From Prosthecobacter debontii (GTDB lineage Bacteria > Verrucomicrobiota > Verrucomicrobiia > Verrucomicrobiales > Verrucomicrobiaceae), in assembly GCA_945860295.1 (NCBI GenBank), contig CAMAQH010000027.1:1-51866 (forward strand): a stretch of 51,866 nucleotides of DNA, in the 5' to 3' direction. This document shows positions 26,199 to 41,392 of the stretch, piece after piece. Numbering within the stretch: the first letter of the stretch is position 1; each line of letters starts with the position of its first letter. The position numbers were made by a program, and so were the translations under genes. Under the pieces are notes generated by a model. The model had not been told where the DNA came from and did not search any database. It saw only the letters and a list, made by a program, of their open reading frames with translations.

Positions 26199-26272
26199 GG
26201 TGAGGCAAAAGTTTCATGGCCAAGTCGCATGATGTGCAACTCATCTGCAAGTACCGGGTTTCCCTGCATCTC

Positions 26273-27556
26273 ATGAAAATACTTTTCCTGCTCACCACTG
26301 TTGTCTTATTTTCTGTCCACGCTGATGCCGACTGGCCACGACTGCGCGGAGTCAATGGTGATGGCAAGGCCGATGGCAGCTTGCCCTTTAAGTGGAGTGA
26401 TACCGAAAACCTCAAGTGGAAAGCCACTCTCCCAGGCCCCGGCTCCTCCAGCCCCATCATCATCGGTGACAAAGTGTTTATCACCTGCTGGTCAGACTAT
26501 GCCGATGGCACGGGAGATGACATGAGCAAAATGGTCCGCCACCTTATTTCCATCAACAAGACCGACGGCAAAATCATCTGGGACAAAACAGTCCCTGCCG
26601 TGCAGCCCGAAGATTTCGCCAACGGCATGCTCATGGAGCACGGCTACGCCAGCAGCACGCCCGTCAGTGATGGCAGCAGCGTCTTCGTATTCTTTGGCAA
26701 ATCCGGCGCGCTCGCCTTTGACATGGACGGCAAGCAGCTCTGGCAAACCTCTGTCGGTACAAACTCTAACCGGAAAGGCTGGGGCAGCGCCTCCAGTCCC
26801 ATTCTGCACAAAGATACGGTCATCATCACCGCCTATGACGAAGGCGGCGCGATGGTCGCGCTCGACAAAAAAACAGGCAAGCAAATCTGGCGCGCACCTG
26901 CCGATGGTCTGGACACCATTTACAGCACACCGCTCATCTCAGGCGGAGACCTCATCATCCCAGTCGCCAGCGAGGTCTGGGGTCTGAATCCTGACAGTGG
27001 CAAGCTGCGCTGGTATGCCACTTATAATATGGGTGGCAATGTCTCCCCCGGCGTAACGGTCGTCGATGGAACGCTGTTTGTAACAGGTGGCTACCCCACC
27101 GCAGGCACCGCCGCCATAAGGCTCGGCGGCAAAGGCGACATCACCGCTGCCAACACCCTTTGGAGCATCAACAGCGCCTCCTACATCCCCACGCCCATCC
27201 ATCACGAAGGCCATCTTTACGTCGTCAATGATGCAGGCTTTGCTATGTGTATCGAAGCCAAAACAGGCGAAGAAATCTACCGCGAACGAGTCATGAAAAA
27301 CAGCGTTGGTCAGAGTGGTGGCGGGCGTCGCGGTGGTGGCAAGCCCTTCTATGCATCACCCGTCCTCGTCGGCGGTAATCTCTACTGCCCGAGCCGCAAG
27401 AATGGCGTCTTCGTCATCGCCGCCAAGCCCACCTTTGAAGTGATCGCCAAAAACACCTTCGCTAGCGATAGTTCCCAAATGAACGGCACGCCTGCCTTTG
27501 ATGCCAACCGCCTTTACCTGCGGTCTGACAGGGCTCTCTATTGCATTGGTGAGTAA
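26273..27556 (+). CDS. Secreted PQQ-like beta-propeller protein
   Basis: The 427-residue protein has a signal peptide (1-17, cleavage near VHADA) and repeated PQQ/pyrrolo-quinoline-type blades with the usual [GT]xxxW and DxxTG-like pattern, for example WPRLRGVNGDG, SINKTDGKIIWDKTV, ALDKKTGKQIWRAP and CIEAKTGEEIYRERV. A Gly/Arg-rich loop (GGGRRGGGK near residue 346) is a local oddity. The sequence does not tell whether it binds PQQ or haem; the family includes non-enzymatic propellers. The ATG at 26273 is preferred because it starts the hydrophobic signal sequence (MKILFLL); the upstream frame to 26216 gives unlikely residues. Transcribed on its own after the SDR gene. Confidence 0.8.
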   Translation: MKILFLLTTVVLFSVHADADWPRLRGVNGDGKADGSLPFKWSDTENLKWKATLPGPGSSSPIIIGDKVFITCWSDYADGTGDDMSKMVRHLISINKTDGKIIWDKTVPAVQPEDFANGMLMEHGYASSTPVSDGSSVFVFFGKSGALAFDMDGKQLWQTSVGTNSNRKGWGSASSPILHKDTVIITAYDEGGAMVALDKKTGKQIWRAPADGLDTIYSTPLISGGDLIIPVASEVWGLNPDSGKLRWYATYNMGGNVSPGVTVVDGTLFVTGGYPTAGTAAIRLGGKGDITAANTLWSINSASYIPTPIHHEGHLYVVNDAGFAMCIEAKTGEEIYRERVMKNSVGQSGGGRRGGGKPFYASPVLVGGNLYCPSRKNGVFVIAAKPTFEVIAKNTFASDSSQMNGTPAFDANRLYLRSDRALYCIGE

Positions 27557-27862: not shown

Positions 27863-28366
27863 AACGTGACCCTGCAATATCTGCGACCCGTGAACAAACA
27901 ACTAGCCACACTAGACATCTCTCGGGGCGGTGTGCCGAGTCAGAAGTAAGATGTCGTAGAGCGACATTGCGACGAATTTGCAGCTACTTTTCACCGCTCT
28001 CCAAAGGCTCTCTATCAAATAGTAGGTAAGCTTGGAGCTCATACACTCACGCTTCAATTGACGCTCATTGAGTTGAATCCCACCTGCCCAAAAGGCAATG
28101 CCGCCATGACACTGATGAAGCTCGCCGTGAGTCCAGTCGCCCGACTAGCCAGCTTTTTCATCAAGGGAAGCGTAGCTATCGAAATCAAAGTCATTGAGCC
28201 CAGATGAGGTCGAGCTTTCTTCCAATTAGCCGACAAAGAATCCGACAGACTCAGCTTCCTCGATAACCGCGAATTCCAGCCCTACGACCATGCCGTGAAC
28301 ACTATCCATGAATGGGCAATCCAGATCGAAGAGATGACCCGAACCCCACGAGGTCAGAAGATATAG
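27863..28366 (+). pseudogene. Decayed DUF3313-like lipoprotein gene
   Basis: One plus-strand phase from 27863 to the TAG at 28364-28366 reads as a coherent protein except for two in-frame stops, TAA at 27947-27949 and TGA at 28205-28207. The readable middle and end (GAHTLTLQLTLIELNPT, then GSVAIEIKVIEPR, stop, GRAFFQLADKESDR and finally NTIHEWAIQIEEM) match my memory of DUF3313-type lipoproteins, which have a GSVAIEG...TG..LA.FADRE.. core followed by a helix around a Trp. The 5' part (VTLQYLRP) seems shifted from an upstream KLFIGT in another phase. No signal peptide remains. A read-through or recoded gene is less likely, because both the start region and two codons are damaged. Confidence 0.5.
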
Positions 28367-28666
28367 GACTAAGTTTCATGACACTAAGACCTTTTTGAGC
28401 AGTCGCGGCCATCATTGGCCGAAGCGTGAATTTTACTACCGTAGTGGCCATGCAAGACGGCGGTAAACAGCAACCTTCTTGTGCAGTCGGCAGTAGCATC
28501 CATACTGCTATATCAAGAAATGAAATGAGGATGATCTGCCTGCCCCTTGCCCCCAATTTGATGTGAATGACAATTTATAAGAATGACAGTGGCTCGCACA
28601 TGGGATGCCGGGATGGTTGCATGATGTCTTTGCAGATCGTCGGCAACTGGGTTTGATGCGCGAGCC

Positions 28667-30163
28667 ATGGAACCGCTCCCAATAGCACTGTTACGTCGTG
28701 CGCCAACCCTCTTGGGCAGGCCTGGTTTGCTATGTGTTTTTGCTACCAGCCTTTCACTGTGCGCACAAGAACTGCCGGTGCGAAGAGTCTTCCTCAATGA
28801 ACTGCTGTCTGAATCTCAGCTGCTGACTGAGCAGTATGAGCGCGCTTTATCCAAACTTGAGTCTGAACTCGCTGCTGCCGCAGACTATGAAGACGCCAGG
28901 CTTGTGCAGCACCGGCGTGATGAGTTAAAGGCTATCTACATGCAGATCGGTAAGAGCGATACTTTGGCGATTCCACTGCCATCCGACAAGGCTCGACTCA
29001 GCGGCACGGCAGAGGCTCGCGGTGATCTACTGACAGGCTGGCGCACGGCTGGCAGCAGCGCCGAGTGGTCAAATCTACGAGTCACGCCGGGCTCTTATTT
29101 TCTGGAACTCGACGCCAGTCTCACAGAGCTGCCAGGTATCTCTGGCAGCTCGCTCTCGAGCCGTTCGCAGCCACAAGAAAAAGTATCGTTCGGCTTTTAT
29201 GAAGTCTCGCTTCTGCAAGGCGCGCAAGAGAACCGCCGGACGTTTGATATTACTCTAAGCAAAGATGAGGCGACTTTTACGCCTCTGCGCATTGGACCCG
29301 TAACCTTCACCCGCAGTCCGGTGACGCTACGGCTGCTACCAGCGGCGGGCTATCCGGCCAACTTAGTGCGACTGCGCCAAATGCGCCTCGCGCTGGCCCA
29401 AGACGATGTGATCACCGCCGCGCCCATGGCCGATAACGGAGAGTCTTTAAATCAAGCTAAGCAGCGCCTCATGGATGACCTGGAACGAGTTCAAAAGACG
29501 GTACTTTCCGCCTATGATACGAAGCTGAAAACGCTGGCCAAGATATCTGCCGAAATGGGAACTGAAGCTGCTGCCGAAATAAAAAAACTTGAAATGATGC
29601 GAAAAGCAGATGCCTCAGGTGCCCATGAAAAACCGCTCTTCCGAATGCTCACCAAGTCGGGTGGTGTGGCTGGCTTTGAGGACATCGAAGGTGTAAAAAT
29701 CATCGCGACTGGAACGACTCAAGGTGATCGCCTGACGATTGAGCATGATGGAAAGCAGATGGCCATTCGACTCTTGTGGGTGGAGTGTGCGCCGCTAACT
29801 GAGGCTGGTGATTCGGGCAAAGGTTTTGCCAAACATTTCGGCATCTCCACAGACAATACAGCAGCGCTGGCACGCGCGGCGAGAGAGTTCACCATGGGCT
29901 ATCTCGAAGGCAAGCCTCTGCGGCTCCTGATCCGTCCAGGTAAGGACAAAGATGGCAGTCAGGCTGCGCTAGTTTTTCTTCCTGAAGTCGGGCTTTTTCA
30001 AAACGTACTAGTGGACCAGGGCCTAGCCGCAGTGCATCCACCGATCAAAGATGTTCCACGTGGCATGATAGAAAAAAGTTTACTGAGCAACCTACTCGAA
30101 CGCGAGGCGGCGGCTAAGCGGCAAAAAAATGGGGCTTGGGCTCTGGGATCGGAGGATCAATGA
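28667..30163 (+). CDS. Secreted protein with C-terminal staphylococcal nuclease-like fold
   Basis: The 498-residue product opens with a signal peptide (hydrophobic about residues 13-32, cleavage near SLSLCAQ). Two helical stretches (about 40-95 and 265-320) have coiled-coil character, separated by a beta-rich domain (about 110-250). The last 150 residues (about 345-490) resemble the TNase/SNase fold: GDRLTIEHDGKQMAIRLLWVE, AREFTMGYLEGKPLRLLIRP, LVDQGLAAVHPP, then a helix and WALG. The catalytic Arg/Glu pair of true nucleases is not obvious, so activity is doubtful. The next gene overlaps the stop codon (ATGA at 30160-30163), so the two proteins are probably made together. Function unknown. 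Confidence 0.6.
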   Translation: MEPLPIALLRRAPTLLGRPGLLCVFATSLSLCAQELPVRRVFLNELLSESQLLTEQYERALSKLESELAAAADYEDARLVQHRRDELKAIYMQIGKSDTLAIPLPSDKARLSGTAEARGDLLTGWRTAGSSAEWSNLRVTPGSYFLELDASLTELPGISGSSLSSRSQPQEKVSFGFYEVSLLQGAQENRRTFDITLSKDEATFTPLRIGPVTFTRSPVTLRLLPAAGYPANLVRLRQMRLALAQDDVITAAPMADNGESLNQAKQRLMDDLERVQKTVLSAYDTKLKTLAKISAEMGTEAAAEIKKLEMMRKADASGAHEKPLFRMLTKSGGVAGFEDIEGVKIIATGTTQGDRLTIEHDGKQMAIRLLWVECAPLTEAGDSGKGFAKHFGISTDNTAALARAAREFTMGYLEGKPLRLLIRPGKDKDGSQAALVFLPEVGLFQNVLVDQGLAAVHPPIKDVPRGMIEKSLLSNLLEREAAAKRQKNGAWALGSEDQ

Positions 30164-30936
30164 TGAATCTGAATCGTCGATTCATATCCATCGCGGCACG
30201 GCGTCTGGCATTCGCCGGACTGACTTTTCTCGCCAGCTCAGCCATGAGCCAAACGTCTCCCGCCATCGAAGCCAGCAGTGCCGACTCAAAACTGCGGCAG
30301 ATGGAAACGATCTATCAGCAGCAGTTGCGTGCGCGTCACATTCCAGTGCTCGGGCGCTATCTGACTGAACTTCAAAAGCAGGCTGCAACTGCAACCGATC
30401 CCAAACTCTACACGGCGGAGATTCAGCGTGTGCAAGCGATGATCAGCGCTGGCGGCGTGCTGAATTTAAATTCCGTGATGAGGGAACTCAATCCCGAGAC
30501 AGCGCCCGCAGCATCTGCGCCTGCTGCCATTCGTCCGGCGCGTGCCGTCACCACCCTGACTCCCGCCTTTGCCCGCAGCATTCAGCCTGTGCCTGAAGGC
30601 AGCGCCAGCCCTGATGCAGCCGCCATCGGCCAGATCGAGTGGCGAATCGAAACGCTGCCAGCAGGCACCTATGACTTGGTGATTCAGTATGCCTGCCCGA
30701 CCGCTAAGCCTGATCTCTTGATCGAGGCTACCTTTGCTGGGAAAAAGATCTCGAAGAATCTAGACCCATCCAAAGCAACCAAGGACATCACGAGCTATAG
30801 ACTCCTCCGCCTCGGCCAAATGACTCTGGATAAAACCACTTCCGGTGAGACGCTCAAACTCACCGCTGGCGTTGCGGGCAGTAGCAGCTTCTTTGTGCGA
30901 AACTTTGTCATCGCGCAAACGAAGCCAGCCGAGTGA
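30160..30936 (+). CDS. Secreted protein of unknown function, partner of the nuclease-fold protein
   Basis: The 258-residue protein has a signal peptide (about 1-29, ending SSAMSQ). The segment near 40-100 is helical with Gln-rich heptads, then an Ala/Pro-rich linker (about 110-130), and then a beta-rich C-terminal domain with IEWRIETLPAGTYDLVIQYACP near 162. I do not recognise a family. Start ATG 30160 is chosen because GGAGG lies at 30151-30155, five bases upstream, one of the few good ribosome binding sites here, and the ATGA overlap suggests translational coupling. The upstream gene has a similar layout (helical part plus GxYxLEL-type beta domain), so they may be related or interact. It converges with the propeller gene. 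Confidence 0.65.
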   Translation: MMNLNRRFISIAARRLAFAGLTFLASSAMSQTSPAIEASSADSKLRQMETIYQQQLRARHIPVLGRYLTELQKQAATATDPKLYTAEIQRVQAMISAGGVLNLNSVMRELNPETAPAASAPAAIRPARAVTTLTPAFARSIQPVPEGSASPDAAAIGQIEWRIETLPAGTYDLVIQYACPTAKPDLLIEATFAGKKISKNLDPSKATKDITSYRLLRLGQMTLDKTTSGETLKLTAGVAGSSSFFVRNFVIAQTKPAE

Positions 30937-30954
30937 ATCAGGGGATCTGATTCA
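30934..30954. terminator. Hairpin covering the stop codons of two convergent genes
   Basis: An 8-bp perfect stem TGAATCAG (30934-30941) with CTGATTCA (30947-30954) and a 5-nt loop GGGAT sits on both stop codons: the plus gene ends TGA at 30934-30936 and the minus gene stops at 30938-30940. Neither strand shows a T run, so it may act as a short bidirectional structure or by stem-blocked 3' processing. Confidence 0.45.
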
Positions 30955-32440
30955 ATGTGTAGGCCATGAGCCGATGCCACAATGGCGTGCCATCTTGAGC
31001 CACTATTTCAGGCAGCTCGAACTCATGCACATAGCCTGCACGCAAGTTCGCACATTCCACCGTCAGCACCGATCCATCACCTGAAAGTTGCCACGCGCTC
31101 AGTTGAAGCGCAGCCGGATCCACCTCAGGACTGCCATACTTGGCCGTGTAGGTGTAAGTGTAGCTCTGCGCTTTCGTAAGCGACCAGTTAGCAGCGCGTA
31201 CTGGCTGTGTGAAGGTGAAACGAAAGCCATCTTTGAGCGCCTCTAGCTTCTGCACTTCAAGTGGCGTTTTACCGGTCCAGACAAGACGTTGCAGGCCAAA
31301 AGAACGATTGCCGTAGCTGTTCCATCCACGATTCGATTGGCCGACGATCATAGAGCCATCAGCGAGGAAGTTAAGCGTGAGAGTTGCGCTTTGCAGACCA
31401 CTGATAAAGGGGAAGCACGCGCCCTGATACTCGCCACCGACCTTCTCCATGAAGACACGGTTCACGCCAGAGAGCACGAATTCACCGACGAACATTTGTT
31501 TCTCAAACGGGCCAAATTTTCCACCTGTCAGATCACAGCGCAGACCGGTCGTGCTTTGACCAAATTTCACATACGGCAGCCACACGGCAGGCAGGCAGTA
31601 ACCGGGCACCTGAGTCACGGCCTCGGCCACCGTGATTCCATCGAGCACTTTGGCAGAAGGCTTCACGGGAGAGTCAGCACGCTTTGCGTCTATCAGTGAG
31701 TCCGCGTGACCAAAAAAGGCACCTTTACGAATGTGCATGATAGGACTCGTTGGCGTCCAGTTGCCCTGCTGATCCGTGCCAAAGATGTCGCCCTCTGCAT
31801 TCAAGCCGATGCCGCACGGGCTGCGAAAACCAGCACTATATCCCACGGCCTTCGTGCTGCCTTTCGGAGTCATCACTGACCATCCACGCCAGAGCGCATG
31901 CTTGGCTTCATCCCCGGCTCCATCCCACTTCTTGCCCATGCTGCAATTGAGCGTGTTGTGCATGTTTCCAGCATGATCAAAGACCGGTCCATAAGCATAC
32001 TCATGGTAGGCTCCTGAGACGCCCCAGCCATGAGCCACGCAGAGATACTCATCTGCTGTGCCGTCGTCATCTGCATCACGCAGTCGTGTCACTTCGGAGC
32101 GCTGAGTCACATACAGCGCGCCCTCATGCCAGGCTAGGCCGAGGATTTCATGCATGCCTTTAGCAAACAACTTGTAGCCGAGGTTTTCCGCATTCGGTGG
32201 CTCAGCGGATGGATTCTGAATGATCCACACCTCGCCTTTACGAATCGATACAGCGAGCTTGCCATCAGGCATCACGGCTAGGCCGCTAGCCTCCATGTTT
32301 ATGCCCTTTGGTAGCTCATAGCTGAGGGTGCGATAATACTCAGACGAGTCCTGGGCGTGGAGAGCCGCGCTCAAGCACATTGCCGCCAGAAACTGAAAAC
32401 TGAGAACTGAAAATTGAGAACTGAAAACTGGTTCTACCAT
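30938..32440 (-). CDS. Secreted beta-propeller protein (DUF7133/PVC heme-binding-like)
   Basis: The 500-residue protein has a signal peptide in its first 29 residues, followed by a six-bladed-type propeller of the L-sorbosone/DUF7133 class. Visible segments are KGINMEASGLAVMPDGKLAVSI near residue 45, VTRLRDADDDGTADEY near 116, GYSAGFRSPCGIGLNAEGDIFGTDQQGNW near 200 and LVWTGKTPLEV near 385. The C-terminal part (about 390-500) is a beta sandwich-like domain. The Asp-rich DADDDGTADEY could bind calcium. The gene overlaps the five-haem cytochrome gene by 7 bases, so the two are co-expressed and could form one electron-transfer complex. The signal peptide codons 4-18 are built from an ACTGAAA-type tandem repeat. 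No true active site is seen. Confidence 0.75.
   Translation of the reverse strand: MVEPVFSSQFSVLSFQFLAAMCLSAALHAQDSSEYYRTLSYELPKGINMEASGLAVMPDGKLAVSIRKGEVWIIQNPSAEPPNAENLGYKLFAKGMHEILGLAWHEGALYVTQRSEVTRLRDADDDGTADEYLCVAHGWGVSGAYHEYAYGPVFDHAGNMHNTLNCSMGKKWDGAGDEAKHALWRGWSVMTPKGSTKAVGYSAGFRSPCGIGLNAEGDIFGTDQQGNWTPTSPIMHIRKGAFFGHADSLIDAKRADSPVKPSAKVLDGITVAEAVTQVPGYCLPAVWLPYVKFGQSTTGLRCDLTGGKFGPFEKQMFVGEFVLSGVNRVFMEKVGGEYQGACFPFISGLQSATLTLNFLADGSMIVGQSNRGWNSYGNRSFGLQRLVWTGKTPLEVQKLEALKDGFRFTFTQPVRAANWSLTKAQSYTYTYTAKYGSPEVDPAALQLSAWQLSGDGSVLTVECANLRAGYVHEFELPEIVAQDGTPLWHRLMAYTLNQIP
32389..32431. repeat. ACTGAAA-type tandem repeat forming the signal peptide N-region
   Basis: Plus-strand units such as GAAACTGAAAACTGAGAACT repeat with little change (AACTGAAAA, ACTGAGA, AACTGAAAA, TTGAGA, AACTGAAAA). 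In the minus-strand gene they encode a Ser/Gln/Phe/Leu-rich run (FSSQFSVLSFQF) that forms part of the signal peptide. The repeats sit in codons 4-18, immediately after the start codon. Confidence 0.7.
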
Positions 32441-34644
32441 GACAAGACCTCCTTCTTCTCTTCACCGTTGATATTGATCGTGTGCTCGAAACACTTGCCA
32501 TTCAGCGTCGGGCGCAGCGTGTCCTCGACAGATTTACCGTCGCTTTGGTAGAGGAAAGTAGGCACACCTTGTTTGTCGAGTTTGTAGCCCATGAACTCGC
32601 GCGTCCCAGGCTCCACTGACAGCGTCTTGATTTCAGTTCCGAGCGGCTTGATTGGCACCATCTCACGGCTTTGCCAGTTGCTCATGGCATCCAGGAATCG
32701 TCCTTTCCAAATCAACACCCAGCGCGATTGGGCGGCATCAAACACGGCATGGATACCCTGCGGAAAACCAACCCCAATGGCATGAGAACCTGCACCCTCG
32801 ATGAAACTACGAAAGACCAACGGCTTACCGAGCTTCTCGGGCTTCAATTCAAAATCTTCAGTCGATATCAATCCCTCTGGCAAGGGCTGACCTTCGATCT
32901 CTTTGAGATAAGTCCAGATGGACTCAATCTCTTGGTCTGCCTTCTTCCGACCGATGAACATCGGTGGCATCATCGTGCCCATTTGAGTAGCCTGCGGATT
33001 GAGAAGTAGCTCTTTAAAATACTCCGGCTGCAAGCGCTCCACCGTGTGCGTGAGTCGGATCACTGGTGGCCCGAGTGACTTGCGATCTTTTAAACCATGG
33101 CACGCGATGCAAGCCAGCCCCTTGGCTCCCATTAAAATACGTCCAGCTTCCGCCCGATGATGTTTCAGCAGACCGCTCACATCAATCGTGACCGGAGTCT
33201 CGCGCTTGTCGGTTTCTGGCAAAAGATCAACGAGCATCTCCGTCTGCGCCTGACCGAAGTTCGGCATCCTTGTGTCCATGTAGGGCCGCACGCTGCCGCC
33301 TTCAGCATAGAGCACCTTTTGCAGCCATCCGCGCGTCAGCTTGCGCCCCACGTTGTCGAGATTCGGTGGCAGGTACGCCAGCTCACCGAGCGATTCCGCG
33401 CTGCCATCATTGGAGCCAAAATACTGCGCGCGCGGATCTTCGGGACCACCCTTGCCATCGCGATCATGGCAGGCGTAGCAGTTCAGTCGGCTCATCTGCC
33501 AGTCCACTTTCTGCGCCGCCGTCAGCACCGGCGCATTCTGTTTTTGAATGGAATTGATAGCCAATCGCAGCGCGCGCTTCTGCAGGTCATTCAAGTCATA
33601 GCGTGGAACGCCAGTGGGCTGTTTATCAGCAAGGCAGCCATTCGTGGGCTTCACAGCAGTCAGACTGGTCGGGCGAGTCGGACCAGTCTGACCAGTCTGA
33701 TGGCATGCGACACAGTTCATGCTGGCAAACAATGCCTTGCCCTTTTCGACGCCTTGCTTCGGTATCTTCAGTGCAGCACGCTCGGTCGCTTTCTCCGCAG
33801 TGCGCCCGCTATGAAGATAGGCAGCAATGTCTGCTGACTCTTGCTCACTGAGGCGCATGTTCGGCATCCGTCCCGATGGGCGATGCGACAGTGGATCATA
33901 TAGGAAATGTGCTAGCGAGTTCACATCATAGGCATCAGCCAAAGAAATCGGCACTGAGCCAAGCCCTGGCTTCTCCAACCCAACTTCAGCAGAGATCTTG
34001 GCAGGACGATAATCCGTCGCCGGTTGATGACAGGCCACGCAGCCGACCTTGTGATAAAGCGAGTTGCCGTGCTCCTGATCTCCCGTAACGGAAGGCGTCA
34101 GCGTGCCGCCTGAGGAAGACTCGCGTCTTCCGCTACGCAGGCCGCTCAGATATTCCGTCAAAGCTTCGACCTTCTCCACATCACCTTCTTCACCTGCAAA
34201 GAGACCGGGCATTTGCGTGCCTTTTTTCCGATGCTGTGGACTGCGAATCATAAGCCAAAGCGTGTCAGCATCCAGGCGCGAACCCACAGCATTAAGATTG
34301 GGTCCAGGCTTTACTGACAAGCGCTCCTTCCATGAATCCGGCGCGCTGTGACAGGCCGTGCAGTTCAGCTCGGCAAGAAGCAGGTAACCGCCCTCGACTA
34401 CATGCTCATCAGGATCTTCAGGCAGATAAAACTGATCAAAGTTGAAGACGTAAGCATGCTTGATCGGCTCAGCTTGGAGCGGATGAGCTCGCGCTGACAA
34501 GGCGCTGAGGAGGAAGATGATCGAGAGCAGCGCGCAATGACGAATGATGAATGATGAATGACGAAATAATGGCACTGCACAAATGGCAAAAGGCATGATT
34601 GGTTCGGATTTCGAGCTTCGGATTTCGTCATGCTTCATTCTCAC
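32434..34644 (-). CDS. Five-haem c-type cytochrome protein with C-terminal domain
   Basis: This product (736 residues from the GTG) has five CxxCH haem c motifs: CTACH near residue 94, CVACH near 201 and 310, CYACH near 388 and CIACH near 511. They are grouped in typical cytochrome domains, and a beta-rich C-terminal region (about 590-736) follows. An N-terminal signal peptide is present. It is therefore a periplasmic electron carrier. GTG 34644 overlaps the DJ-1 stop (GTGA); ATG 34638 or ATG 34596 are alternatives. The first 40 residues are encoded partly by repeat DNA (HSSFIIRH), and the gene also holds two palindromic elements, at 33659-33700 and 34114-34131. The 7-base overlap with the propeller gene suggests joint expression. 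Confidence 0.85.
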   Translation of the reverse strand: MRMKHDEIRSSKSEPIMPFAICAVPLFRHSSFIIRHCALLSIIFLLSALSARAHPLQAEPIKHAYVFNFDQFYLPEDPDEHVVEGGYLLLAELNCTACHSAPDSWKERLSVKPGPNLNAVGSRLDADTLWLMIRSPQHRKKGTQMPGLFAGEEGDVEKVEALTEYLSGLRSGRRESSSGGTLTPSVTGDQEHGNSLYHKVGCVACHQPATDYRPAKISAEVGLEKPGLGSVPISLADAYDVNSLAHFLYDPLSHRPSGRMPNMRLSEQESADIAAYLHSGRTAEKATERAALKIPKQGVEKGKALFASMNCVACHQTGQTGPTRPTSLTAVKPTNGCLADKQPTGVPRYDLNDLQKRALRLAINSIQKQNAPVLTAAQKVDWQMSRLNCYACHDRDGKGGPEDPRAQYFGSNDGSAESLGELAYLPPNLDNVGRKLTRGWLQKVLYAEGGSVRPYMDTRMPNFGQAQTEMLVDLLPETDKRETPVTIDVSGLLKHHRAEAGRILMGAKGLACIACHGLKDRKSLGPPVIRLTHTVERLQPEYFKELLLNPQATQMGTMMPPMFIGRKKADQEIESIWTYLKEIEGQPLPEGLISTEDFELKPEKLGKPLVFRSFIEGAGSHAIGVGFPQGIHAVFDAAQSRWVLIWKGRFLDAMSNWQSREMVPIKPLGTEIKTLSVEPGTREFMGYKLDKQGVPTFLYQSDGKSVEDTLRPTLNGKCFEHTININGEEKKEVLSW
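33659..33700. repeat. Coding palindromic repeat in the five-haem cytochrome gene
   Basis: GTCAGACTGGTC (33659-33670) is the exact reverse complement of GACCAGTCTGAC (33681-33692), with a 10-nt loop and a further GACCAGTCTGA-like copy to 33700. In the minus-strand gene it gives HQTGQTGPTRPTSLTAV right after the third haem motif. The core and reading phase match the element at 13645-13676. Confidence 0.75.
34114..34131. repeat. GGAAGAC palindrome within the five-haem cytochrome gene
   Basis: GGAAGAC at 34114-34120 and GTCTTCC at 34125-34131 form a 7-bp stem around TCGC. In the minus-strand gene it is read as part of LRSGRRESSSGG, between haem motifs 1 and 2. It looks like an inserted low-complexity element, but only one copy was noticed in the window. 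Confidence 0.5.
34537..34564. repeat. ATGACGA heptamer array in a signal peptide
   Basis: Four head-to-tail heptamers (ATGACGA, ATGATGA, ATGATGA, ATGACGA) on the plus strand. In the minus-strand cytochrome gene they are read as RHSSFIIRH, part of the predicted signal peptide. It is the reverse complement of the array before thyA at 10265-10299. Confidence 0.75.
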
Positions 34645-35216
34645 ACGCCCATCTTCGCACGCTCAGCATCTAGTGCTTTAATCCACGGGCCGATGAAGTG
34701 TCCGCTATCGTGATAAGTACGGCCTGAATACATGTGCTGGTCGATCACGCAGGGTTCATTCACATAGATGCCTCCGCAGATTTCGAGGTCGAACTTGCAC
34801 TTCGCCACGGTGGCCATGCGCAGCCCATTGACGATGTTCGCACGCGCTGGGATTTCAACGCCATGACAGACGCTGGCACAGGGCTTTTTATTGTCCCAAA
34901 ACCACTTGGTGAGGCGGATGAGATCGGCGTCCTCGCGAATGTATTCTGGAGCGCGGCCACCACTGAAAAAAATACCCACGTACTCCTCAGGCTTGACGTC
35001 AGCAAAGGTGATGTCGGCATCAATCGAGTAGCCTTCCCACTCCTTCGTGATCGTCCAACCGGGCTTCACTTCATGCAGCACCATCTGATACCTCCGCTTT
35101 TCCGGCGCGGCGATAATGGGTTTGTAGCCGCTCTCGATGAGGCGGTAATAAGGATACAGAGTGTCCACGGTTTCCGTGGCGTCACCGATGATGAGGAGGA
35201 CTTTGGGTTCGGGCAT
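34641..35216 (-). CDS. DJ-1/PfpI family protein
   Basis: The 191-residue protein is a class I glutamine amidotransferase-like DJ-1/PfpI member. The nucleophile elbow reads ASVCHGVEIP near residue 115, with the reactive Cys followed by His and Gly, and a preceding FFSGGRAPEYIRED segment (near 84) gives the conserved GG. Members act as peptidases, chaperones, deglycases or hydrolases; the substrate is unknown. There is no signal peptide, so it acts in the cytoplasm, unlike the secreted neighbours. It lies 34 bases after the TIM-barrel gene, and its stop overlaps the start of the cytochrome gene, so the four genes from 36144 to 30938 appear to be one transcript. Confidence 0.85.
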   Translation of the reverse strand: MPEPKVLLIIGDATETVDTLYPYYRLIESGYKPIIAAPEKRRYQMVLHEVKPGWTITKEWEGYSIDADITFADVKPEEYVGIFFSGGRAPEYIREDADLIRLTKWFWDNKKPCASVCHGVEIPARANIVNGLRMATVAKCKFDLEICGGIYVNEPCVIDQHMYSGRTYHDSGHFIGPWIKALDAERAKMGV

Positions 35217-35250
35217 AAAAGCAGGATTTTGTGAGTGTCGGTTGAGTGGA

Positions 35251-36144
35251 TTAAATCAAGGCATCAAGATGGTTCTTTGCTCGCAAAATTTCAGCAGTAA
35301 CCTCTGCCGACGTTGGCATAATAGGGATGCCGCGTGGAGTTGGGTGCATGAAGATTTCCGTGGGGCCTGTGAACTTAATTTCTCTGAGTGCAGCCAGCAG
35401 AGGCTTCCAATCCAGTTTGCCGCGCCCTGGAAGCTGCTGGATCTCATCTTCCTTCGGCATCGGTTTCATACAACCCAGGCCGTGTTCCCAGGCATAGAAG
35501 AGCGTCATCTTCTGGTCTGTATGCTTGATAAGATCAGTTAGCAGGGCGGTGTCTTGCGGAAGATGATAAGGAGCCAGGGCGATCCCGAGCCCAGGAATGT
35601 TGCGGATGTCATCGGCCAGCCAGCGCAGTGAGTCAGGCGTGTCGATGAGATTGTTGATATGGTTCTCGATGCCAATCTCGACTCCATGCTCAGCCGCGAT
35701 TGCGGCGTGCGGCTTCATCTTCTCCACGAAGTCCTTCACGTTCTTCTTCAGTTGTTCAGGCGTGACCTTGAACTCCCCAGCCCCGCCTGTGACGATGAAA
35801 GATCCACCCAACTGCTTAACGAGCTTGATTTCATTCGCCAAAGCAAAGGGTCCGAGATCATAGCGCGTGGTGCCACCAAAACTGATCATGTGATCCTTGA
35901 GCATCGCCTCAAATTTCTCCACGCCGATGACGTCCAACTCCTCGCGCTGTGTGCCGTGTTTTTTTGGCCAAAGTTCGATACCAGTCGCACCGGTCTTTTT
36001 CGCCTCTGGCAGGATTTCGGCCAGAGGCAGATTGCCATACATGCTGGAGGCCAGCATGTAGTTTAGATTCCACTCGTTTGTAGCAGCGCAGGCTGGTACG
36101 GCTGCGAGTGCAGTCAGGGATTGGATGAAATGACGACGGTTCAT
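35251..36144 (-). CDS. Sugar phosphate isomerase/epimerase-like TIM-barrel protein
   Basis: The 297-residue protein begins with a Tat-like/Sec signal (MNRRHFIQSLTALAAVPACAA), so it is probably exported. The rest is a xylose isomerase-like TIM barrel: IELWPKKHG near residue 55, VEIGIENHINN near 155 (Glu of the metal site), LAPYH near 190 and EIFMHP near 263. In the common GLxxDxxH motif the Asp is replaced by Ala here (GIALAPYHL), so metal binding may be altered; I have seen similar forms in PVC proteins. It heads the minus-strand cluster with the DJ-1, cytochrome and propeller genes, which hints at sugar or lactone conversion coupled to electron transfer. Exact reaction unknown. Confidence 0.8.
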   Translation of the reverse strand: MNRRHFIQSLTALAAVPACAATNEWNLNYMLASSMYGNLPLAEILPEAKKTGATGIELWPKKHGTQREELDVIGVEKFEAMLKDHMISFGGTTRYDLGPFALANEIKLVKQLGGSFIVTGGAGEFKVTPEQLKKNVKDFVEKMKPHAAIAAEHGVEIGIENHINNLIDTPDSLRWLADDIRNIPGLGIALAPYHLPQDTALLTDLIKHTDQKMTLFYAWEHGLGCMKPMPKEDEIQQLPGRGKLDWKPLLAALREIKFTGPTEIFMHPTPRGIPIMPTSAEVTAEILRAKNHLDALI

Positions 36145-36280
36145 GGCGTGCTAATAAAACCGCAAACTCTCCACATCTTCCTTCAGCATTCACACCTACT
36201 TCCTCAGATTTTGCGGCTGATCAGAATCGAATAAAGTCGAAGAGGCGAGTGGTCTGCGACACACTTGCACTCCGTTTAAT

Positions 36281-39200
36281 CTACTTCATCGGATGCAGCT
36301 TCAGCAGCTCGTCCGTCGTGAAGAGCATCATGCGGCCGGGGTTGGCGGCGCGGACGGCTTTGACTTCGGCGGGGGTGATTGGGTCGGCTTTGTTGCCGAA
36401 GTGGTTGCGGACGAAGGTGAGGACGTTGGCGAGTTCTTCGTCTTTGAGCATGCCGCCGAAGGGAGTCATGGGGACCTGGCCGTTGTATTCTTTGTCGCCG
36501 ACTTTGATGGGGCCCATGAGGCCGTACATGGCGATCTTGATGAGGCGATCGCGGTCGCTGGTGACCCAGGGGCTGTTGACGATGCTGGGAAAGGCGGGAT
36601 CGAGGCCGGCACCATTTGGCTGATGACAGGTGACGCAGTGGCCTTCGCGGAAATAGACTTCCTGACCGGCGGTGAATTGGCCTTTGGCGACTGCGCTGAG
36701 ATGCGCGGGCGGCAGGACGGCTTTGTACTCGGGGCGCACGACTTCGATGACGCCAGCGAGGCGATCCGCAGCGGTTTTGGCGGCGGCTTTGTTCCAATCA
36801 TCGAGCGGGAGCTTGGAGGCGATGGCGACGATGTTTTTCGCGGCGGGAATGTTCGGCAACCATGAAGCGGCGACGATGGCTTCGAGGCGCACGCGGCCGT
36901 GTTCGTCCGCAGCGGCTTTTTCGAGCAAGGCGACGTGATCGGCAATGCGATGCGTGTTGTAGCGCAACACACGCACGGCGGCGGCGCGGGCGTGGAAGTC
37001 GCTGGAGGCGAGAAGTTCGCGGAGCAGGCCTTCATCGGCCTGATTGAGGCCCCAAGTAGTCCAGAGAGCTTCGAGCTTGGCGTGCGTTTCATTTTGCTTG
37101 GCAGCCCAGGCTTTAACCGCAGGGAGGACTTCGCTGGCGGGACGACCGCGCAGCTCACGGCGGGTGCGGTAGCGTTCACGCAGCTCGGGGGCCTTCAAGT
37201 TTTCCAATAGCGCGGCGATGGGGGCTTCGGCGACGGGCGCGGCCTTCACGAGCGGGCGGCTCGGATAGGTGATGCGGTAGATGCGGCCATGCACATGATC
37301 ACGCAGCGGATCGCGGGCGTTGTGCTGCATGTGGCCGATGAGCACGTTGTGCCAGTCGATGACGTAGAGGCTGCCATCGGGTGCAAATTCGAGATCGACG
37401 GGGCGGAAGTTGCCGTCGGTGCTCTTTAACAAGTCGTGGCGATGCGCGGTCTTCCAACCGGTGCCGTCGTCTTCGATTTTCACCTGCTTCACGCCGAGGA
37501 AACCGATGGCGTTACCGTAGATGAGGTCGCCCTGCACTTCGTCAGGGAAATGGCGGCTGCTGACGATCTCGAGGCCGCTGGTCGGACGCACTTTGTGGTC
37601 TGGTGGGACGAGATCGGCGGTGGAAGGCGTCTTGCTGCCAAAGGCGGGCTTTACTTCGACAGGCAGAGCCCAGTTCATGGTTGTGCCAGAAGTGTGGAGC
37701 AGGAAATCCTGGCCCCATTGATCAAACGTGAAACCCCAAGGATTCGGGATACTCATCTGGATGGTGCGCTCCAGCATGCCACGCTGCGGGCTATAGCGGA
37801 AGAAGCCGCCATCGACGCAGCGCACGGGGCCGTAGGGCGTTTCGATGTTTGAGTGGAGGAAGACGCCCTCGCAGAGCATGAAGGCACCGCTTGGGTCGGC
37901 GGTGAAGGCACTGATCGCGTGATGCGTGTCATGCGTGTCGAAGCCGCCGAGCACGATCTCCATGCTGTCGGCCTTGTCGTCGCCGTTGGTATCGCGGATG
38001 AGCACAAGATTCGGCTCCTGCGTCACATACACGCCTTCCGGTGCAAACTCGAAGCCGATGGGCAGATGCAGCTTGTCAGCGAAGACGGTTTCCTTGTCGG
38101 CTTTGCCATCACCGTTCGTGTCTTCATAGATGAGCAGCTTGTCGTCCGGCATCGCATCACCGGGGCGATAATGCGGATAGGTCGGCATTGTGGCGACCCA
38201 CAGGCGGCCTTTGTTGTCGAAGCTCATCTGCATCGGGTTCGCGAGGTTCGGGAATTCTTTTTCGGAGGCGAAAAGCTCGACCTTGTAGCCCTCCGGCACG
38301 GTGAGGGACTTCACAGCTTCTTCGCCATAAAGATACTTCTCGCTGCCGTTCTTAGCGCTCGGTGCGTAGTTCGTCGGCACGGGTGGTAGCACGTGGGTCT
38401 TGCTGTCATCGACTTTGATCTCGGTCGTTTTGCTGCTGGCGACGTTGTGGATCAAATCATCGCGCAGCGCGGTCATCTCGCGGGTCTTCTTGATCTCATC
38501 GGGATAGTTTTGCGGGCCATACGGACTGTAGCGGCGGCCATGGGCATGCACGCCGTTGAGGATGTTGTAGTCGCTGTTCCAGAACCAATCCCTCTCCTTC
38601 ACCGCCGCGAGCACTTTAGCCGGATCAGCCTTCGATTCGCGGCTCTGGTGGCCGTAGATGCCTGTGGCGAGTAGTTCAGCGATTTGCTCATAACCTTTCT
38701 CCGTCGGCACAAAGCCACCGGAGGTGAAGGACTCGCCGCCTTTGGAGTAAATCGACTTCGTGGGCGAGAAGAGATCGATATAAGTGAGCTTGTGCTTCTT
38801 CGCGACGTTCTCGATGGCGGCGGCGTAGAGCAGCAGGTTGGAGTTCTCCACGTCGCCCTTGGGCAGATCACGTTTCGCGCTTTGATCTTCATACGCGATG
38901 GGGCTGGCGAGCACGATTCGCGGCGCAGCCTTGCCGTTGTAGGCCTTGCTCAATGTGTGAACGACCCACGCATCGAGTTCCGCCTCAAAGTTGCCCACTT
39001 TGCTCGGGCCGTCGAAAGACTCGTTGTAGCCGAAGAAACCAACCACTGTGTCCGCCTTCAGATGCGTCAGCCACTGATCCGGCGTGGCGTAAAAGCCCTG
39101 GCCGTTGTGAATAGGCTTGTCGGGATGGAATTTCTCCGCGCCGGGGAATGCCCACTGCGACGCACGCGATGGATGCGGACGGAAGCCCGGTGTGTCGCCG

Positions 39201-40477
39201 ACGTGGCCCATGTTACGGAAGAAGAGGTCACGGCCGGGGTAACGAAGCTGCAGTTCCGTCTCGATGCGGCTGTACCAGGTGTCACGCTCAGCGAGGCCAT
39301 TACCCACCAGCACGATGCGCTCGCCTTTCACCGGTGGTGCGACGTTTTGATCGCGAGCCGTCGTGGCAGCCGCAGGCTCTGCGCTGGGTTGATGCGGAGC
39401 CGCTGCGGGCTGCTCATCCTTCTTCTTATCCTTTTTACCGTCGCCTTTCTTGACGGCTTCTTGCTTCGCTTTGTCCTCAGGAAGGCCCATGGATGGGCTG
39501 CTGCCCGTTGCGAAGTCACCGGGCTTCAAGTTGCGCTGCTTGTAGTATTCGCTTTTGACTGCGGAGTAAAAAGTCGGGTTGAACGGGTCTACGAAGGCCA
39601 CATCTGCCTTGGCAGGCACTTCAAGAGCGAGCAAATGATGCGCCGCGTTCACGATGAGACGGCGCAGGTTTTCATCCGCAAAATCGACTGAGGCACCCAT
39701 GGTCGTGCAGAAGGATTTACCCTTCGTCAGGCCATCCGGCGCGGTGTAGCTATGCAGCCATGCCAGCGGCATCATTGGCTCGTTCTTTTTGCCTGCGACT
39801 GCCTTCGACTTCGGATCGAGTGACTCCGTGACCTGACCACGCAGCAGAATGGTGTCATTTTCTGGTTTCAGATTCACCACGCCATAGACATCTGTGGTTC
39901 CAAAAATCTCGCCTACGCCACGCAACACGGCATTCGAACCATTCGCAGATTCCACGACACTGCGCGTTCCTTCTTTTTTGTGTGAACCATGATGATTCAC
40001 CCATTTCTCACCGAGGATTTTCAGCCCGAACTCGCTCCACTTGAAGTCGCCCGTCTTTGCACCGCCGCTGAAGGCATGCGTCGCCGTGCGGAAACCGATC
40101 ACCGGCTTGCCCGCATTGAGGAACTTCGCGAAGTTCGCTAGGTGCTCATCCGACAACTGACGAAAGCGAGTGCCGATGATCAAGAGGTCCGCATCCGCCA
40201 GCATTTCGGTGCCACGGATATTCTTCTGGTTGTTTGGGTCGATATAGCCCGCCTTTTCGTCCGTGGAGAAAAGTACGATGCAATTGAAGCCATGCTTCTT
40301 GGCCAAAATCTTCGCCAGCATCGGCATCGACTCCTCCGTTCGGTATTCTTCATCGCCCGCCACCAGCACGATTTTCTTCCCACCCCCAGCTCCACCGGGA
40401 TTCGCAGCGATTTCGAGGTATTCCTGCGCGGACGCGAACGAGCCTAGCAGAGCGAGTGATAAGAGGAGGTGCTTCAT
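36281..40477 (-). CDS. Giant ThuA / SGNH-like / propeller / HEAT / cytochrome c fusion
   Basis: The 1398-residue protein has a signal peptide (1-17) and these parts in order: ThuA-like domain (about 30-295, VLVAGDEEYRTEES); a charged Lys/Asp and Ala/Pro linker (about 330-380); SGNH hydrolase-like domain (about 385-610); L-sorbosone/DUF7133 propeller (about 705-1080, AVKSLTVPEGYKVELFASEKE); HEAT-like helical repeats (about 1100-1250); and a cytochrome c domain with CVTCH near 1279. It is probably periplasmic or surface-attached. The SGNH blocks look degenerate: GNGLAERD instead of GDSxxxG, and GFVPTEKGY without the usual Asp/His. Start ATG 40477 gives a standard signal peptide; a longer frame to 40510 adds 11 residues. 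This architecture is known in PVC bacteria, but its substrate is not. Confidence 0.82.
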   Translation of the reverse strand: MKHLLLSLALLGSFASAQEYLEIAANPGGAGGGKKIVLVAGDEEYRTEESMPMLAKILAKKHGFNCIVLFSTDEKAGYIDPNNQKNIRGTEMLADADLLIIGTRFRQLSDEHLANFAKFLNAGKPVIGFRTATHAFSGGAKTGDFKWSEFGLKILGEKWVNHHGSHKKEGTRSVVESANGSNAVLRGVGEIFGTTDVYGVVNLKPENDTILLRGQVTESLDPKSKAVAGKKNEPMMPLAWLHSYTAPDGLTKGKSFCTTMGASVDFADENLRRLIVNAAHHLLALEVPAKADVAFVDPFNPTFYSAVKSEYYKQRNLKPGDFATGSSPSMGLPEDKAKQEAVKKGDGKKDKKKDEQPAAAPHQPSAEPAAATTARDQNVAPPVKGERIVLVGNGLAERDTWYSRIETELQLRYPGRDLFFRNMGHVGDTPGFRPHPSRASQWAFPGAEKFHPDKPIHNGQGFYATPDQWLTHLKADTVVGFFGYNESFDGPSKVGNFEAELDAWVVHTLSKAYNGKAAPRIVLASPIAYEDQSAKRDLPKGDVENSNLLLYAAAIENVAKKHKLTYIDLFSPTKSIYSKGGESFTSGGFVPTEKGYEQIAELLATGIYGHQSRESKADPAKVLAAVKERDWFWNSDYNILNGVHAHGRRYSPYGPQNYPDEIKKTREMTALRDDLIHNVASSKTTEIKVDDSKTHVLPPVPTNYAPSAKNGSEKYLYGEEAVKSLTVPEGYKVELFASEKEFPNLANPMQMSFDNKGRLWVATMPTYPHYRPGDAMPDDKLLIYEDTNGDGKADKETVFADKLHLPIGFEFAPEGVYVTQEPNLVLIRDTNGDDKADSMEIVLGGFDTHDTHHAISAFTADPSGAFMLCEGVFLHSNIETPYGPVRCVDGGFFRYSPQRGMLERTIQMSIPNPWGFTFDQWGQDFLLHTSGTTMNWALPVEVKPAFGSKTPSTADLVPPDHKVRPTSGLEIVSSRHFPDEVQGDLIYGNAIGFLGVKQVKIEDDGTGWKTAHRHDLLKSTDGNFRPVDLEFAPDGSLYVIDWHNVLIGHMQHNARDPLRDHVHGRIYRITYPSRPLVKAAPVAEAPIAALLENLKAPELRERYRTRRELRGRPASEVLPAVKAWAAKQNETHAKLEALWTTWGLNQADEGLLRELLASSDFHARAAAVRVLRYNTHRIADHVALLEKAAADEHGRVRLEAIVAASWLPNIPAAKNIVAIASKLPLDDWNKAAAKTAADRLAGVIEVVRPEYKAVLPPAHLSAVAKGQFTAGQEVYFREGHCVTCHQPNGAGLDPAFPSIVNSPWVTSDRDRLIKIAMYGLMGPIKVGDKEYNGQVPMTPFGGMLKDEELANVLTFVRNHFGNKADPITPAEVKAVRAANPGRMMLFTTDELLKLHPMK

Positions 40478-40553
40478 GGGTTGATACAGGCGAGAGTCGA
40501 TATACCGCATGACGCAGCAAAACCGGACAATAAAAAAAGGCTTGGCTAAAATT

Positions 40554-41147
40554 TTATCTCAGCGTCCTGGGGACAAAGACCCACTGCATGCCTGCCGCTT
40601 TCGCTGCGTCGATACCTGACTGACCGTCTTCGAGCACAAGGCAGTCTTTCGGTGCGAGTCCCATGCGCTGGGCGGCGAGCAAGAACATGTCGGGAGCGGG
40701 CTTACCGTGAGCGACGAGTCGAGGCGTGATGATGATGTCATCAAAGAGATGCAGCAGGTCATTCGCGGCGAGGCAGCCACGAACAATGTGCTCCTCACTG
40801 CCAGAGGCGACTGACATGGGAAGTTTGCCATGCATTGAGCGGGCAAAATCAGCCACAGGTTTTACTGGCTTTACTTGTGGAAGGAGTGTCTCAAACAACG
40901 CTGCTTTGTAGTCTGCGACAGCATCGGGATCGATGGCGGTTTTATACTCGGCATTCAAGAGTTTCACGACATCTTGCTCACGCACACCCGCCTTGGAATA
41001 GAAGTAGTCTTCGGTGAACTCAAAAGGTGCTTTGTGATAATTCAAAGAGGCGACCCAAGACTGATAATGCAGCGGCATCGAGTCAACGAGTGTGCCGTCA
41101 CAATCAAAGATAATGCCGAGAAAAGGATGGTCAGGAATGATGAGCAT
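40554..41147 (-). CDS. HAD-family hydrolase (beta-phosphoglucomutase-like)
   Basis: A 197-residue HAD phosphatase of the beta-PGM/GPH type. Motif I is FDCDGTLVDSMPLHYQSW (catalytic Asp pair near residue 14), motif II is ASGSEEH near 107, the Lys of motif III sits in HGKPAPDMFLLAAQRMG near 140, and motif IV is CLVLEDGQSGIDAAKAAGM near 164. These members dephosphorylate small sugar phosphates or interconvert them. The ATG 41147 (MLIIPDHPFLG) is chosen because it places the HAD motif at the usual distance; the longer frame to 41207 is not supported. No specific substrate can be read. Confidence 0.88.
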   Translation of the reverse strand: MLIIPDHPFLGIIFDCDGTLVDSMPLHYQSWVASLNYHKAPFEFTEDYFYSKAGVREQDVVKLLNAEYKTAIDPDAVADYKAALFETLLPQVKPVKPVADFARSMHGKLPMSVASGSEEHIVRGCLAANDLLHLFDDIIITPRLVAHGKPAPDMFLLAAQRMGLAPKDCLVLEDGQSGIDAAKAAGMQWVFVPRTLR

Positions 41148-41286
41148 GAAGATTAAAAAGGTACGCGGTCCAGCCGAAGAGAGCGCTCTACACCCAACCT
41201 TCAACACAGAACTTCTAGGACACGGAATGCGGCCCCTTGGTCACCAGCAAAGCATGAAAAAATTCGAGACAGAAGAGCGGAGAAAG

Positions 41287-41338
41287 ACCTCTCCATAGTT
41301 TAGATTCACCTGACCTCTCCATAGTTTGGATTCACCTG
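41287..41338. repeat. 26-bp tandem duplication
   Basis: Two adjacent copies (41287-41312 and 41313-41338) of ACCTCTCCATAGTTTAGATT plus CACCTG differ at one base (A or G at the 16th position). It lies between the HAD gene start and the GAF gene. It could be a recent slippage event; a regulatory role is not shown. Confidence 0.75.
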
Positions 41339-41392
41339 CTATCGCTGCCCGCTGCCCGCTGCGCAGATGCTCACGTTGACACCTACATCACC

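Follow-up and report, generated by a model that had tools for sequence, protein, structure and literature searches.

What might four genes for a sugar-isomerase-like barrel, a DJ-1-type protein, a five-haem cytochrome and a beta-propeller do together when they are tightly packed in a member of the Verrucomicrobiota? The question is raised by a 51,866-nt stretch of DNA from Prosthecobacter debontii (contig CAMAQH010000027.1 of assembly GCA_945860295.1, positions 1 to 51,866; hereafter the window), whose genome spans 4.68 Mb on 75 contigs and is 95.3% complete. Four minus-strand open reading frames (ORFs) are packed at 30938-36144, in the coding order TIM barrel, DJ-1, cytochrome, propeller. This arrangement is real and recurrent, and because it recurs across many genomes it is more than a chance neighbourhood. 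Its core is the cytochrome–propeller pair, and the TIM barrel and DJ-1 form a second, semi-independent pair that is joined to the core in many Verrucomicrobiota and in a few bins of other phyla. We favour, with slightly more confidence than doubt, the reading that the cassette is a modular periplasmic sugar or glycoside oxidation module of the Planctomycetota–Verrucomicrobiota group, with electrons passing to the pentahaem cytochrome. An initial annotation of the window had described four tightly spaced genes on one strand, and all four ORFs are in place:

35251-36144, minus strand: TIM, RR-signal xylose-isomerase-like barrel (297 aa; PF01261, 65 bits)
34641-35216, minus strand: DJ-1/PfpI-family protein (191 aa; PF01965, 92.7 bits)
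32434-34644, minus strand: predicted-secreted pentahaem c-type cytochrome with a C-terminal beta-barrel domain (736 aa; PF00034/PF13442 and structure model)
30938-32440, minus strand: predicted-secreted DUF7133-like propeller, candidate sugar-oxidising subunit (500 aa; structure model and fold matches)
32434-32440, minus strand: overlap of the cytochrome stop with the propeller start, 7 nt (ATGGTAG, from the sequence)

The TIM and DJ-1 genes are separated by 34 nt, and a convergent ORF (30136-30936) ends 1 nt from the propeller stop. Two gene overlaps had been proposed, and that between cytochrome and propeller stands. The 4-nt overlap of DJ-1 and cytochrome at 34641-34644 is not secure, because it depends on a GTG start, and with the ATG that follows in frame (34638) the two genes would be 2 nt apart instead. 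The proposed export of three of the proteins agrees with what we see by eye, namely an RR motif on the TIM barrel and hydrophobic, signal-like predicted helices on the cytochrome (residues 30-49) and the propeller (residues 10-28), and no export signal was found on DJ-1.

Recurrence of the cytochrome–propeller pair

Of 286 genomes searched in the class, 49 have cytochrome homologues at E<=1e-30 and 63 have propeller homologues at E<=1e-60. We inspected 120 loci, made up of 40 stretches around cytochrome matches and 80 named loci from a propeller profile; the latter are the best 80 of at least 575 and are biased to close relatives, those most similar to the window coming from bins labelled Verrucomicrobia(ceae) and Prosthecobacter. 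At least 575 of 589 pattern matches in one genome collection encode a propeller relative. Propeller matches occur in 119 of the inspected loci, which correspond to 117 distinct places (L038/L125 and L045/L121 are duplicates), and the 120th locus (L040) has a short cytochrome and no propeller match. Among the 119, the pair alone is found in 57, the order of the window in 35, TIM–cytochrome–propeller in nine and DJ-1–cytochrome–propeller in eight; rarer types are DJ-1–TIM–cytochrome–propeller (five), cytochrome–propeller–TIM–DJ-1 (one) and a propeller alone (four). Of these last four, L114 shows a cytochrome fragment at a lower threshold, and in the other three the contig ends less than 650 nt from the propeller. 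The full cassette is also present in bins labelled Planctomycetota and Hydrogenedentota (L148, L129).

The linkage of the two core genes is close. They share a strand in 116 of the 119 propeller loci, that is, in every locus that has both, and in 111 of these 116 pairs the cytochrome stop lies at most 270 nt from the propeller match, the five wider ones being L062, L099, L073, L058 and L063. In the last two, a ThuA domain stands between the cytochrome and the propeller match, inside the propeller's own frame; these ThuA–propeller fusion frames measure 843 aa (L058, 5554-8082, minus strand) and 873 aa (L063, 5070-7688, plus strand). In 104 of the 116 pairs the propeller has a possible in-frame start that overlaps the end of the cytochrome gene by under 20 nt; only the presence of such a start was counted, since our start scoring favoured the start nearest -7. 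The initial annotation had named independent scattering of the genes in relatives as what would speak against a module. Such scattering is not seen for cytochrome and propeller and is half seen for TIM and DJ-1, which also occur without the pair. The gene set recurs in other genomes and is more modular than that annotation recognized.

The P. debontii genome itself carries two further cytochrome–propeller loci, one followed downstream by a ThuA gene (contig C18, L070, 5290-10463) and the other by a gene for a PSCyt1/PSCyt2/PSD1 protein (contig C45, L175, 2909-9212).

The TIM–DJ-1 pair and its alternative partners

TIM orthologues (E<=1e-90) were found in 24 of the 286 class genomes, and 13 of them adjoin the cytochrome–propeller pair. 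Genomes with TIM and genomes with the propeller (24 and 63, respectively) coincide in 15 cases where 5.3 would be expected (Fisher p 8e-6, relatedness ignored). The TIM loci away from the pair number 16, namely the 11 remaining class loci and five from 387 genomes of the phylum; the weaker TIM-like loci L172-L174 were excluded as distant, and the L048 TIM, a distant paralogue that appears in a 14-row alignment, was not scored as TIM in the locus-type counts. In seven of the 16 (L163, L166, L169, L170, L206, L209, L210) a Gfo/Idh/MocA match stands on the TIM strand no more than 1 kb away, with only 6-36 nt between the matches in four of the seven, against a background of four among 120 cytochrome–propeller windows (1.74 Mb) for the same two Gfo/Idh queries. 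L208 has a Gfo/Idh match 4.4 kb from TIM, L163 shows the tightly packed order DJ-1–TIM–Gfo/Idh–enolase superfamily, and in L207 TIM adjoins a GMC-type oxidoreductase, a flavoprotein. The best NCBIfam model of six of the Gfo/Idh proteins (L163, L170, L206, L208, L209, L210) is glycoside 3-dehydrogenase BT_2158, at 130-347 bits, all below the model's cut-off of 750 bits. The L206 version also looks periplasmic, because its Gfo/Idh and DJ-1 ORFs both start with RR-type stretches.

Different oxidoreductases thus occupy the same place beside TIM–DJ-1, and this replacement by Gfo/Idh or GMC proteins is our main reason for reading the cytochrome–propeller pair as a sugar or glycoside oxidoreductase. 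Other neighbours were surveyed by clustering the genes of the 120 loci, with one representative annotated per cluster. A XylR-like regulator cluster occurs in 10 loci and GntR/FCD regulators in five. Among transport proteins, L119 and L206 have GntP permeases, L042 has a TonB receptor gene placed between those of DJ-1 and TIM, and L040 has an SSS transporter next to its short cytochrome. Family-III CoA-transferases are found in six loci and sulfatases in 23. Gfo/Idh proteins of another kind follow the pair in L043, L045/L121 and L122, and an enolase-superfamily protein does so in L115. The general idea of sugar oxidation put forward in the initial annotation is supported by this context of regulators, transporters and replaced oxidoreductases; its orthodox version, a PQQ (pyrroloquinoline quinone) sugar dehydrogenase, is disfavoured by the residues and genomes discussed below.

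In the mechanism we propose, propeller and pentahaem cytochrome would form a two-subunit periplasmic oxidoreductase, in which the propeller would bind a sugar or glycoside and the cytochrome would accept the electrons and pass them on towards the respiratory chain. The oxidised product, which bears a carbonyl, would then be processed by DJ-1 and the exported TIM barrel, and elsewhere the same two proteins would work with a Gfo/Idh/MocA or GMC dehydrogenase instead.

The propeller and its putative active site

The propeller protein consists of a propeller domain and a C-terminal beta domain of about 100 aa (model mean pLDDT 90.9). It scores below the cut-offs of both related family models, PF23500 (DUF7133; 24.2 bits versus 27) and TIGR02604 (43.9 versus 122.2 bits), and DUF7133 is matched at E<=0.1 by all 48 sequences of our propeller alignment (47 of the 72 propellers of suitable length from named loci, plus that of the window; alignment A4). 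The protein thus has its propeller superfamily in common with PVC-type haem-binding proteins, in which TIGR02604/DUF7133 is fused to a cytochrome c domain, as in the 1409-aa product of a neighbouring gene; unlike in those proteins, its five haems are carried by a separate, overlapping gene. We checked 17 polar or aromatic residues that are invariant in 48/48 sequences (H97, E98, R114, Y145, H146, E147, R185, R206, Q224, Q225, W287, T298, R328, E332, Q339, R371 and W373), and because of this invariance an active site is likely in the propeller.

The closest solved folds are PQQ-dependent aldose and glucose dehydrogenases, including the Asd/YliI proteins and soluble GDH, with Z 28.1-29.8 and root-mean-square deviations of 2.8-3.2 over 285-297 residues. 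The best is 3a9g (Z 29.8, deviation 2.9, 297 residues; Foldseek E 6.3e-13), and 7cgz, 2ism, 7cdy, 3das and 2g8s follow at Z 28.1-29.2. The remaining propeller folds, some of them further PQQ enzymes, have Z of at most 25.0, with NHL, SMP30 and lactonase kinds at Z 22-25.

The cytochrome and its third haem

The five haems of the initial annotation are borne out by CxxCH motifs at residues 95, 202, 311, 389 and 512 of the cytochrome (model pLDDT 86.4). The distal ligands were assigned from an alignment of 42 sequences (41 of 56 cytochromes plus that of the window; alignment A5):

34348-34362, minus strand: haem 1 CxxCH, residues 95-99, distal Met145 (alignment)
34027-34041, minus strand: haem 2 CxxCH, residues 202-206, distal Met260 (alignment)
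33700-33714, minus strand: haem 3 CxxCH, residues 311-315, no conserved Met (alignment)
33634-33636, minus strand: Cys337, predicted axial ligand of haem 3 (invariant, no conserved partner cysteine)
33466-33480, minus strand: haem 4 CxxCH, residues 389-393, distal Met460 (alignment)
33097-33111, minus strand: haem 5 CxxCH, residues 512-516, distal Met559 (alignment)

Met145, Met260, Met460 and Met559 are conserved in 41-42 of the 42 sequences. Haem 3 has no conserved Met, and Cys337, present in 42/42 (and in 40/41 of a second alignment, with one gap), is the sole conserved Cys, Met, His or Lys between haems 3 and 4 that could ligate it, which suggests that haem 3 is His/Cys-ligated. A conserved disulfide partner for Cys337 is lacking, as 22 of the 42 sequences have no other non-haem cysteine after residue 55. 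One observation runs against the predicted ligation: L133 has no haem-3 CxxCH, the stretch looking disrupted, yet keeps Cys337.

The C-terminal part (about residues 606-736) is a beta barrel in the model. When the whole cytochrome was used in fold searches, individual class-I cytochrome domains were matched (Z about 9, residues 484-585); the barrel, which was not searched alone, had no strong match. DUF6797, which we take to be located in this C-terminal part, is matched at E<=0.1 by 28 of the 42 cytochromes, the window protein not among them.

The TIM barrel and DJ-1 proteins

The TIM protein belongs to PF01261 (65 bits versus a cut-off of 31.1). It starts with MNRRHF, and an RR motif lies near the start in all 27 aligned sequences (26 TIM sequences, including that of L083, plus the window's; alignment A6); the Pfam TAT model matches only at E 0.022, below its cut-off. 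The TIM of L083 (about 4089-5003) looks frameshifted mid-gene, and the DJ-1, cytochrome and propeller of that locus match normally. The altered metal site of the initial annotation is confirmed, in that the motif GIALAPYHL is present with Ala at the metal Asp position. In alignment with IolI and TM0416, whose corresponding residues are presumably metal ligands, three of the four ligands, which sit on the last four strands of this fold, are replaced and E160 is kept: the Asp is A191 and the Glu F265 (both in 26/27), and the His is Y217 or A218, the two alignments being one residue apart. E160, W59, H63, R67, H162, H194, H267, P268 and R271 are kept in 26-27 of the 27 sequences. The Mn2+ beta-eliminase OGE has His132, Asp163, His189 and, weakly, Glu233 as ligands (PMC10628242). 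With three of its four ligand positions replaced, TIM is unlikely to work through an OGE-type metal site.

The DJ-1 protein is a clear member of PF01965 (92.7 bits versus 26.6), with best PDB matches to plant DJ-1D and then to PfpI/PH1704 types. Its nucleophile Cys117 and Glu15 are kept in 13/13 aligned sequences (that of the window and 12 others, all 12 taken from the first 40 loci; 19 later sequences were left out). This family placement would fit removal of reactive carbonyls.

Relation to known pathways

A literature search found no paper on the cassette combination, in agreement with the initial annotation, and none that mentions DUF6797 or DUF7133; most subscription papers were beyond its scope. 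A broad-specificity 3-keto glycan pathway (BT2156-2160), which the search did not return, has reportedly been published. A parallel in gene organization is offered by the NAD(P)-linked glycoside 3-dehydrogenases (BT_2158 family, Gfo/Idh/MocA) and the OGE/CGE beta-eliminases, where an oxidoreductase gene likewise stands next to sugar-phosphate-isomerase-like barrels (PMC10628242). In relatives of our cassette a Gfo/Idh protein takes the pair's place beside TIM; the cassette enzyme is predicted to be cytochrome-linked, whereas the known dehydrogenases are NAD-linked, and the TIM protein is without the metal site (His/Asp/His, weakly Glu) described for OGE.

Alternative explanations

Several points weigh against the sugar-oxidation reading, whose functional case is one of guilt by association only. 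TIM or DJ-1 matches are missing nearby in 57 of 119 loci, some of them cut by contig ends. Neither the pair nor a Gfo/Idh gene was found in the stretches examined around the TIM genes of L161, L162, L164 and L167 (all from one genus), L165, and L171, which offers sequence on one side alone; at L168 the contig breaks off, with no Gfo/Idh in what remains. Two of the seven Gfo/Idh cases (L163 and L170) provided the query sequences, Gfo/Idh proteins are common in these bacteria, and the background rate derives from other genomes. No single transporter or regulator is common to all loci examined. In addition, because the PQQ ligands are replaced and PqqC is unmatched, we can assign the propeller no known redox cofactor.

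The last point also bears on an alternative that we set aside as the main explanation on these same two grounds and consider improbable, namely a propeller that works as a PQQ-dependent aldose dehydrogenase with scavenged PQQ, passes electrons to the cytochrome and produces lactones. The PQQ aldose dehydrogenases are periplasmic and are the nearest folds, they share an RxPxG motif with the cassette propeller, and a profile built from 32 GSDH sequences, that of E. coli YliI among them, aligns across the whole propeller at 94.7% probability (6.5% with a profile of three GSDH sequences), placing Arg206 on the conserved Arg of the GSDH RNPxG motif. E. coli makes no PQQ and has YliI, so that missing PQQ synthesis is not decisive, and the GntP permeases (L119, L206) and enolase-family genes (L115, L163) would fit sugar acids. 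However, PF07995 (GSDH) has no match on the window propeller at E<=0.1 and matches five of the 48 aligned propellers weakly (best E 0.0024). The positions aligned to the GSDH Lys/Arg/Arg that presumably hold the PQQ carboxylates are T/V322, A/G352 and L/V/I/F354 in 48/48, and the invariant Y145-H146-E147 lies near the catalytic His position in a gapped, ambiguous part of the alignment. In the search of the 286 class genomes, PqqC was absent from all 63 that have the propeller, whereas 19 of the 286 exceed its cut-off (26 at E<=1e-10). An extra C-terminal domain and a dedicated five-haem partner on an overlapping gene further separate the cassette propeller from this family. Loss of the PQQ site, together with the NHL, SMP30 and lactonase folds at Z 22-25, would suit a pair without an enzyme, with a propeller that serves for binding or docking (or as a lactonase-like hydrolase) and a cytochrome that is a co-expressed general electron carrier; the dense, active-site-like set of invariant residues and the near-constant close linkage of the two genes speak against this, and we regard it as unlikely too.

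Sulfur chemistry, in which the His/Cys haem would resemble the SoxA/TsdA site and oxidise a sulfur compound from sulfated-glycan breakdown while the propeller bound the partner, appears to us highly doubtful. The cytochrome does exceed the SoxX cut-off (TIGR04485, 81.7 versus 61 bits), with the best stretch around haem 1, but this 78-position single-haem-domain model is weak evidence of function. A sulfatase-type cluster, known from its one annotated representative, accompanies 23 of the 120 loci, though sulfatases are common in these bacteria. The invariant Cys and absent Met at haem 3 recall SoxA and TsdA, which share the predicted His/Cys c-haem, and the Cys-ligated haem of TsdA is catalytic (PMC4423706). 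Unlike those proteins, the cassette cytochrome is pentahaem, no SoxA or TsdA Pfam model is among the matches of the 42 cytochromes, and no SoxY (PF13501) match at E<=0.01 was found in its genome, the control for this search being weak, with one sub-cut-off match in 14 genomes. The TIM, DJ-1, Gfo/Idh and sugar-type regulator partners do not suggest sulfur either. Within the preferred sugar-oxidation reading, a bolder version would see in the pair a periplasmic dehydrogenase class that is widespread and as yet undescribed, with a PQQ-less quinoprotein-type propeller and oxidation at or near the His/Cys haem of the cytochrome; the pair would replace NAD-linked glycoside dehydrogenases before a metal-free TIM lyase or isomerase. 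We hold this possible but rather unlikely.

Genes and sequence features around the cassette

A co-directional gene (36281-40510, minus strand) ends 136 nt upstream of TIM and encodes the 1409-aa fusion of ThuA, SGNH hydrolase, DUF7133 propeller, HEAT and cytochrome c domains. ThuA, SGNH and fusion-propeller pieces had no match in four same-genus stretches (L034-L037), and the gene, considered as a cassette member, was set aside and seems to lie outside; for a HAD gene (40554-41207) no evidence of linkage was found. Upstream of TIM, L041, L123 and L137 carry fatty-acid desaturase, FG-GAP and PhyH genes (L041 with a sulfatase too), and L168 has ORFs of matching sizes at the same place. On the other side of the cassette, the product of 28667-30163 (plus strand) has a weak C-terminal staphylococcal-nuclease-like match and overlaps its partner 30136-30936 (plus strand); this gene pair also adjoins the propeller in L074, L078 and L086. 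Further away, 26216-27556 (plus strand) encodes a 446-aa PQQ_2/BamB-type propeller, of a Pfam family that differs from the cassette propeller's.

An Rfam scan of 28000-42000 gave no match. Promoter-like sites were near background (6 versus 4.2 in shuffled sequence), and terminator-like sites were in excess of it (18 versus 10.7), with no clear operon boundary marked. Short repeats on the minus strand, TTTTCAGTTCTCA-like at 32386-32425 and TCATTCATCATTCG-like at 34536-34570, lie within the signal-peptide codons of propeller and cytochrome, respectively. Dispersed repeats were considered and rejected, the exact and one-mismatch patterns being almost confined to this place in the genome; they look like local short tandem repeats.

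Implications

These bacteria play an important part in the breakdown of complex sugars, and many of the cytochromes they carry are uncharacterised. The genomic context ties a large family of DUF6797-type pentahaem cytochromes and DUF7133-type propellers to sugar oxidation, and it cautions against annotating propellers of this type as PQQ enzymes. Cys337 and the three lost metal ligands of TIM make the mechanism directly testable.

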